The position numbers were made by a program, and so were the translations under genes. A stretch of DNA of 64,000 nucleotides from Geothrix edaphica (lineage in GTDB: Bacteria; Acidobacteriota; Holophagae; Holophagales; Holophagaceae): positions 310,001 through 374,000 of the forward strand of contig NZ_BSDC01000001.1 in NCBI RefSeq assembly GCF_030268045.1, given 5' to 3'. Below are positions 62,481 to 64,000 of the stretch, piece after piece. How positions within the stretch are numbered: the stretch's first letter is position 1; each line of letters opens with the position of its first letter. Under the pieces are notes generated by a model. It saw only the letters and a program-made list of their open reading frames with translations, had not been told where the DNA came from and searched no databases.

Positions 62481-62739
62481 TCCCACTCGGAGGTTGGCCG
62501 TGCTCCATATTTGGGATCGACCCACCAGAGCGGGATTCGAACTGTGTCTGGCTGCGCCAGCCGCCGGTCCCCGCTCCCGACAGTGCACCGCGCTGTCTCC
62601 GCGGTCCCACTCGGAGGTTGGCCGTGCTCCGTATTTGGTGCCGACCCACCAGAGCGGGATTCGAACTGCGTCTGGCTGCGCCAGCCGCCGGTCTCGCTTC
62701 GGCGTGCCATCAAGGCACGCCTCGGGCGATCCCACTCGG
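62481..62739. repeat. 89-bp tandem repeats with variable hairpin spacers
   Basis: Two near-identical 89-base units at 62481-62569 and 62605-62693 differ at only a few positions, and the first ten bases (TCCCACTCGG) recur at 62730, giving a 124-125 base period. The two spacers (35 and 36 bases) differ in sequence but each contains a hairpin (GACAG...CTGTC; GCGTGCC...GGCACGC). Each unit carries GGATTCGAACT, like the complement of a tRNA T-arm, and the short hairpin CTGGC-TGC-GCCAG. Confidence 0.75.
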
Positions 62740-62807
62740 CCGAAGGCCAAAGGGGGTGGTGAGTGCAGGCGCCCGGGCGGCGCCTGCCGAACCGGGCACC
62801 CCCGGCC

Positions 62808-62832
62808 TGAGGTTCGAATCCTCTCGTCCCGA
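62808..62832 (+). pseudogene. tRNA-Pro-like 3' end, fragment
   Basis: T-arm TGAGG-TTCGAAT-CCTCT (four of five pairs) followed by acceptor strand CGTCCCG and discriminator A. G72 and A73 suit tRNA-Pro. The 5' acceptor partner CGGGACG and the rest of the tRNA are absent upstream, and no CCA is encoded. A 9-bp hairpin (62765-62787) lies where the body would be. Confidence 0.5.
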
Positions 62833-62837
62833 ATGGT

Positions 62838-62883
62838 CAAAACACCAGAAGGGCCCTCTTTCGAGGGCCCCTCTGGTGTTTTG
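62838..62883. terminator. Large hairpin terminator between two tRNA fragments
   Basis: Arms of 21 bases (62838-62858 and 62863-62883, one mismatch, TTTC loop) with a GTTTTG end on each strand, an effective terminator in both directions of the kind found after tRNA genes. Confidence 0.75.
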
Positions 62884-62909
62884 GTCGGCGCGAGAGGATT
62901 CGAACCAAT
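62882..62909 (-). pseudogene. tRNA-like 3' end with encoded CCA, fragment
   Basis: Read on the minus strand: TTCGAAT-CCTCT, acceptor strand CGCGCCG, discriminator A, then CCA. The proximal T-stem strand (ATTGG) pairs at only two positions and no 5' acceptor CGGCGCG exists upstream, so only the 3' part of a tRNA is present, joined to unrelated sequence. It faces the fragment at 62808-62832. Confidence 0.5.
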
Positions 62910-63109
62910 GGATGACGATCGAACATGCGGCCAGGTGCTGCATGTTAATTGTTGATAATAATATTTTTGTAAAGACTGCGAGATTAAGGCCCCTCCCGTC
63001 AGATGGCGACAAAGTGGGCCGAGTAAGTTGTCTGATATCAATGGGGCTATCCCTTCCTGTGCTGCGATGTGTGCAGCAGAAACTGGGGTCCGGAGGGGAC
63101 CTTCTGCAG

Positions 63110-63185
63110 CACATCGATGTGTCGGCGGAAGCACGTCGGTGTGCTCCGGGCAGCACACAGATGTGCCATGCGACACATCGCTGTG
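63110..63185. promoter_or_regulatory. Array of four CACA-N4-TGTG dyads
   Basis: Four 12-bp sites: CACATCGATGTG (63110), CACGTCGGTGTG (63132), CACACAGATGTG (63154) and CACATCGCTGTG (63174). Their starts are 22, 22 and 20 bases apart, about two helical turns. Three keep both half-sites exactly; the second has one change. This regularity points to cooperative binding by a dimeric protein. It lies about 120 bases ahead of the exonuclease-like gene. Confidence 0.6.
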
Positions 63186-63302
63186 ATGAGGGTAGAACCT
63201 CCTTCTATCCGCAGGCGCGATAGGCACTTCGGCGAAGTGAGAAGCGCGGCGGGGCCGGCTTTGCTGGAGCCGCACCCGTTGGTGCTCACCAGGAGCATGT
63301 CC

Positions 63303-64000
63303 ATGTCTACCCCTTCACTCATCTTGAAAGCAGTTCGGGACGCCGTCATGGAAGAGTGTCACCCGGATACGGGGCTTCCGGGAGCTTCCGTCATCGATCT
63401 CCTCGCCATGGCTGGCCTCACGCTGGAGCAGGCTTCGCACAGGCTTGGGATCTGTAAAGAGGATCTGTACCGTGTCTGTTGGCGAATGTGCTGGGACCCT
63501 CGAGTCATGGCCGAGATCAACGGTCTGATCCGGGGCTTCGGCTTCGACCACACCGTGATCTGGGGACGGAATCCGTCGGCAGCGTTCGATGGTCCGAAGA
63601 CCCCCACTGCCTTCGAGGGTGTGCCTGCGTTCCAGGGGAAGCTTGACCTCAGCCGCCACGGCTTGCTGCTGCTGGCGGACTGCGAAACCAGCGGGCCCGA
63701 CGCCGAGCGCCATCGGGCCGTGGAGGTGGCGCTTCTGAAGGTCGTGGTGGATCGCCGGCCCCAAGGGGGTTCCCGGCTCCTTGGCGCCTTGGACGCCTAT
63801 CAGGGACTCCAGGATCCGGGGCCTCACCCCGTCAACCTCTTCTCGATGAGGGTCCACCGCATCCCCCTGGGGCACCTGCTGGGGCAGGTCCTGGACGAAG
63901 GTGCGCTCGACCGTGTGCTGTCTGGAGTCAGGATCGTGGTCGCGCACAATGCCTCGTTCGACAGGCGCTTTCTCACCAAGGCCATCCCCGCGCTCAAGGG
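63303..64000 (+). CDS. DnaQ-like (DEDDh) 3'-5' exonuclease, cut by window end
   Basis: The frame is open from ATG 63303 to the window end, 232 residues seen. ATG at 63303 is seven bases after AGGAG; the ATG two codons earlier is too close. Residues 1-115 form an unrecognised helical N-terminal domain with several Cys (LDLLAMAGLT-like region, RLGICKEDLYRVCWRMCWDP). The exonuclease domain begins near 120: LLLLADCETSGPDAERHRAV holds the D-x-E motif, and IVVAHNASFDRRFL near the end holds the H-N-x2-F-D motif. The late catalytic His/Asp lie outside the window. Such nucleases serve in proofreading, repair or mobile-element biology. Confidence 0.7.
   Translation, partial: MSTPSLILKAVRDAVMEECHPDTGLPGASVIDLLAMAGLTLEQASHRLGICKEDLYRVCWRMCWDPRVMAEINGLIRGFGFDHTVIWGRNPSAAFDGPKTPTAFEGVPAFQGKLDLSRHGLLLLADCETSGPDAERHRAVEVALLKVVVDRRPQGGSRLLGALDAYQGLQDPGPHPVNLFSMRVHRIPLGHLLGQVLDEGALDRVLSGVRIVVAHNASFDRRFLTKAIPALK

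Follow-up and report, generated by a model that had tools for sequence, protein, structure and literature searches.

Tandem repressor operators are known in temperate phages and in ICEs, e.g., lambda OR/OL and the ImmR-type regulation of ICEBs1. Mu Ner is a small standalone protein. The locus considered here, an array of four CACA-N4-TGTG dyads upstream of an HTH-exonuclease gene (exo), belongs to a window of 64,000 nucleotides, i.e., the whole stretch of DNA that was analysed (contig C1:310001-374000). As in the lambda and ICE operators, several similar dyads of ~14-17 bp follow each other at steps of 20-24 bp in the control region of an element, and the structures closest to the HTH of exo include HTH proteins of the 434/ImmR/SinR fold. 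The differences are that (i) the array has no adjacent divergent repressor gene; (ii) the HTH next to it is part of a fusion with an exonuclease; (iii) the operator role is putative. The likeness to Mu Ner (HTH_35) consists of a weak match of the N-terminus of one exo homologue, in the related genome G039 (E 9.5e-4, under the Pfam cut-off), whereas the HTH is here joined to a DEDDh exonuclease and the island's own protein has no HTH_35 match.

With the sites of phage 186 Apl and P2 Cox the array shares its multiplicity, its position near attP and an element carrying xis and int. Known excisionase (RDF) sites are direct repeats that follow each other at one helical turn (PMC7498355), whereas the array is composed of palindromes two turns apart; no direct repeats with the one-turn spacing of an Xis/Cox/Apl region are found in it. 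A type 1-like BREX system is encoded by the same island (BrxE, BrxA, BrxC, PglX, PglZ and BrxL), but the array is ~7.5 kb from the BREX genes and belongs to the integration end.

Table 1. Features of the island, of its array and of related loci. Positions are those of the window unless contig C1 or a locus number (L) is given.
Feature	Position	Strand	Remarks
attL repeat, copy of tRNA-Pro 3' end	62879-62906	-	28 bp, 100% identical to attR copy
TGCTGCGATGTGTGCAGCA palindrome	63060-63078	.	GATGTG half-site; similar sequence 40-60 bp inside attR
Dyad 1, CACATCGATGTG	63110-63121	.	perfect half-sites
Dyad 2, CACGTCGGTGTG	63132-63143	.	one mismatch
Dyad 3, CACACAGATGTG	63154-63165	.	perfect half-sites
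Dyad 4, CACATCGCTGTG	63174-63185	.	perfect half-sites
CTTCGGCGAAG, copy of conserved palindrome CTTCGNCGAAG	63227-63237	.	65 nt before exo start codon
exo, HTH-exonuclease gene	63303-64000, on to contig C1 ~374220	+	305 aa; RNase_T E 8.5e-8; DnaQ fold Z 16.5
N-terminal repressor-type HTH of exo	63381-63563	+	residues 27-87; AlphaFold pLDDT 87
xis-like gene	C1:408530-408979		
int2 ORF	C1:410384-411115 (L008:384-1115)		behind integrase
attR repeat	C1:411291-411318		inside intact tRNA-Pro(ggg), C1:411294-411370
CTTCGNCGAAG sites	63227-63237; L007:17453-17463; L112:1491 and 3177; L111:6727	minus for L111	
TTTGCGCA array of G039	L111:6874-7041	minus	214-380 bp before exo start codon, upstream of CTTCGNCGAAG
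Second exo copy of G046	L112:3236-4168		

The four dyads are genuine and far beyond chance. The preliminary description had reported them as four CACA-N4-TGTG repeats, three perfect, at steps of 22, 22 and 20 bp, in a gene-free stretch upstream of an exonuclease-like gene, and all of this is accurate: the fourth has a single mismatch, the stretch is apparently non-coding, and the start of exo lies 117 bp after the array. The helical phasing had also been called unlikely by chance. In simulations, the largest cluster in a comparable stretch contains 2 dyads vs. 4 observed (60 simulated 64-kb sequences, built with the 4-mer statistics of the window). The genome-wide search for clusters that had been proposed gives 18 copies of the perfect 12-mer in 3.16 Mb, 3 of them within the 76 bp of the array; pairs of perfect dyads 4-16 bp apart are found neither elsewhere in the genome nor in 76 other genomes of the order.

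With at least three similar dyads about two helical turns apart, the array has the layout of a tandem operator. The symmetry continues beyond the 12-mers, and all four sites share the longer consensus AGCACATCGATGTGCT; CAC...GTG is invariant in 4/4 copies, while the linkers have diverged. Tandem Repeats Finder describes the array as a 22-bp unit in 2.7 copies with 71% match. Apart from the att repeats, neither the genome nor plasmids or phages contain a further copy of the region, and Rfam gives no credible match. The array is private to the island element.

The ~38.4 kb between the two att repeats are regarded as an integrated island because 28-bp tRNA-Pro repeats bound this DNA and relatives have the empty site, i.e., in G011, and in several more congeners, the left flank continues directly into an intact tRNA-Pro. 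The island has the marks of a tRNA-integrative element: a direct repeat of the tRNA 3' end is present at both ends, and a tyrosine integrase and an excisionase-like gene are found inside. The right end carries the xis-like gene, the tyrosine integrase (Phage_integrase, E 5.6e-13) and a degenerate second recombinase-like ORF (int2). The xis-like gene is related (51-54% over 35 aa) to excisionase-like genes of the genomes G039 and G046, which match Exc weakly. Relatives of the integrase at E below 1e-30 are absent from 395 other genomes of the phylum, and plasmids give three weak matches. As seen by eye, int2 apparently lacks the usual catalytic C-terminus; with PHROG giving no more than a weak integrase match (E 0.0012), it was not retained as a clear recombinase. 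The other products of the island are a HipA-like protein with a small HTH partner, a RES-domain protein, an ADP-ribosylglycohydrolase and a NUDIX/NrtR-like protein. Beside the integration site, window positions 62500-62832 contain repeated tRNA 3'-end-like pieces (GGGATTCGAACT; GGTTCGAATCC) that are common to relatives, and no tRNA gene is recognised there.

The exo product combines an N-terminal domain, predicted with good confidence to be a repressor-type HTH, with a DEDDh exonuclease domain that has the DnaQ/epsilon fold. HTH repressors make up many of the best Foldseek matches of the HTH, at weak E-values; none is below E 0.001, so that the fold class is assigned from weak hits with high probability. 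Within this search the HTH-exonuclease fusion is confined to four genomes of one genus, two-domain homologues being found only in G039, in G046 (two copies) and, truncated, in G019. Viral contigs contain no full-length relative, the matches being limited to the exonuclease domain. In G039 and G046 the gene order is exo, xis-like, int; the best reading is that exo is part of an integration module, because these homologues adjoin xis and int genes. In the second copy of G046 the DxE catalytic residues are gone (GCMTSG for DCETSG), but the HTH is retained.

Four exo genes (island, G039 and both copies of G046) and the island xis gene carry the palindrome CTTCGNCGAAG in their leaders, 63-67 nt ahead of the start codon. 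It is absent from the 14 kb examined for the G019 gene. Its longer form, CTCTTCGNCGAAGTNTGC, has exactly three zero-mismatch copies in 47 genomes of the genus, all in exo/xis leaders with CTTCGNCGAAG. The constant spacing and the variable centre fit a protein-binding site; a role in RNA may also be considered.

The exo gene of G039 has its own array, made of TTTGCGCA repeats (3.5 x 41 bp) unrelated in sequence to the island dyads and unique in the 47 genomes of the genus. Some of these repeats form TTTGCGCAAA palindromes. This array is less regular than that of the island and is in part a plain tandem duplication. No array is found upstream of the homologues of G046 (two copies) or G019, and arrays were rejected as a trait common to exo homologues in general. 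Taken with the island, an element-private array before exo thus recurs in two of four genomes and the palindrome is common to three. The second exo copy of G046 has an HTH nearly identical to that of G039, yet no TTTGCGCA site occurs in 30 kb; the exo HTH is therefore probably not the reader of the array, at least in the G046/G039 case. As far as the sequences indicate, it would be a better candidate for the shared CTTCGNCGAAG palindrome than for the arrays.

On balance, and with moderate confidence, the array can be considered as a private tandem operator controlling the exo promoter. Each ~16-bp dyad (consensus AGCACATCGATGTGCT) would be the binding site of an HTH repressor, dimeric and probably encoded by the element. 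With two turns between sites the dimers would sit on one face of the helix and could bind cooperatively; occupancy of the array would then control transcription of the HTH-exonuclease gene of the excision/integration module. We infer here the binding of a protein, its repressive effect and its identity, for which the candidates would be the HTH of exo itself, the xis-like protein, the HipB-like HTH or a host factor. Perhaps the array holds a secondary role near attP.

The operator is favoured because (i) the linkers have changed around conserved dyad cores; (ii) the array is private and separates attL from the first gene of the island, which also carries xis and int; (iii) the exo gene of G039 has a private array upstream of the same CTTCGNCGAAG and start codon; (iv) the dyads alone explain the folded structure discussed below; (v) the downstream protein has a repressor-like HTH. 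Against it are counted the homologues of G046 and G019 devoid of arrays, the HTH of the second G046 copy, the lack of a recognisable sigma-70-like promoter in 62780-63400 (the scan being limited to this type) and the fact that no regulator gene is encoded divergently from and next to the array. The preliminary description had considered an operator, a recombination region of a mobile element and a replication or partition site: the first fits best and the second was right as to location (attL end).

The main rival, itself rather unlikely, is that the dyads are accessory sites of the attP recombination complex (arm-type, Xis or architectural), serving excision and integration and not transcription. 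The array starts 204 bp from the att core, inside the left end of the island, and the gene order predicted for the circular form (xis, int, int2, attP, array, exo) would place it between int2 and exo, beside attP. The fifth-best match to the array 16-mer in 145 kb, AGCACATGGGTGTGCT, is 309 bp inside the other end (contig C1, 410967), but it falls within the int2 coding sequence. In the same way CTGTGCTGCG, common to TGCTGCGATGTGTGCAGCA and to the attR-side sequence, occurs in just these two places, i.e., on the two arms, within 145 kb, but the overall arm-to-arm similarity is marginal, 88 of 1500 random pieces scoring as high. Finally, the one-turn direct repeats described for excisionases (PMC7498355) do not agree with dyads two turns apart.

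That the array is a decaying, functionless tandem duplication of a 22-bp palindromic unit is improbable. The unit is still recognisable, and other phyla have sporadic examples of palindromic tandem repeats (19-23 bp) built on this core; such decay does not account for the invariance of CAC...GTG in all copies despite the divergence of the linkers, nor for the array upstream of the homologous G039 gene. It is very improbable that the exo leader forms an RNA structure in which dyads 1:4 and 2:3 pair into a single long hairpin. The + strand of the 96-nt stretch does fold at -51 kcal/mol (z -4.9 vs. shuffles), but shuffles of the linkers only fold as well in 188/1000 cases, and in 482/1000 when the 14-mers are kept; moreover each dyad is itself palindromic, a property that no hairpin requires. 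A long RNA or DNA hairpin was thus rejected as a separate feature, since the dyads alone account for the fold; it is a by-product of several palindromes, and selection, if there is any, would act on the single dyad. It is also very improbable that the array serves a plasmid-like phase as its iteron or partition site. The regular helix spacing and the mobile element would suit this reading, but the island proteins scanned include no recognisable Rep, Par or relaxase family; a divergent rep or par gene nearby is still conceivable.

If the operator is real, the array identifies where a mobile island spreading a BREX phage-defence system is controlled, and the HTH-exonuclease-led integration module would have two short, testable signatures in its DNA, namely the private dyad array and the conserved palindrome. 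A more elaborate scheme, for which we see little chance, makes the HTH-exonuclease, in which a repressor HTH is joined to an exonuclease of the proofreading type, the element's own switch protein: it would read CTTCGNCGAAG before exo and xis, while the fast-evolving private array before exo would set immunity or specificity, so coupling excision control to DNA-end trimming. The CTTCGNCGAAG palindrome is possibly more interesting than the dyad array. The switch is of an ordinary kind with unusual neighbours, and the conserved palindrome with the HTH-exonuclease is the more interesting part.

A scan for the dyad-array pattern gives 59 stretches in 84,980 genomes and 4 in viral contigs. By inspection most of these consist of tandem repeats of 19-23 bp, perfect or nearly so, and many are within mechanical ORFs; showing no visible link to an exo/xis/int module, they were not retained as relatives of the array. 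Many unrelated bacteria have palindromic tandem units of 19-23 bp with a CACR-N4-YGTG core (L034-L096, e.g., L071, L074, L080 and L073), and several of these arrays, from Bacteroidota, reach up to 15 units with variable centres.
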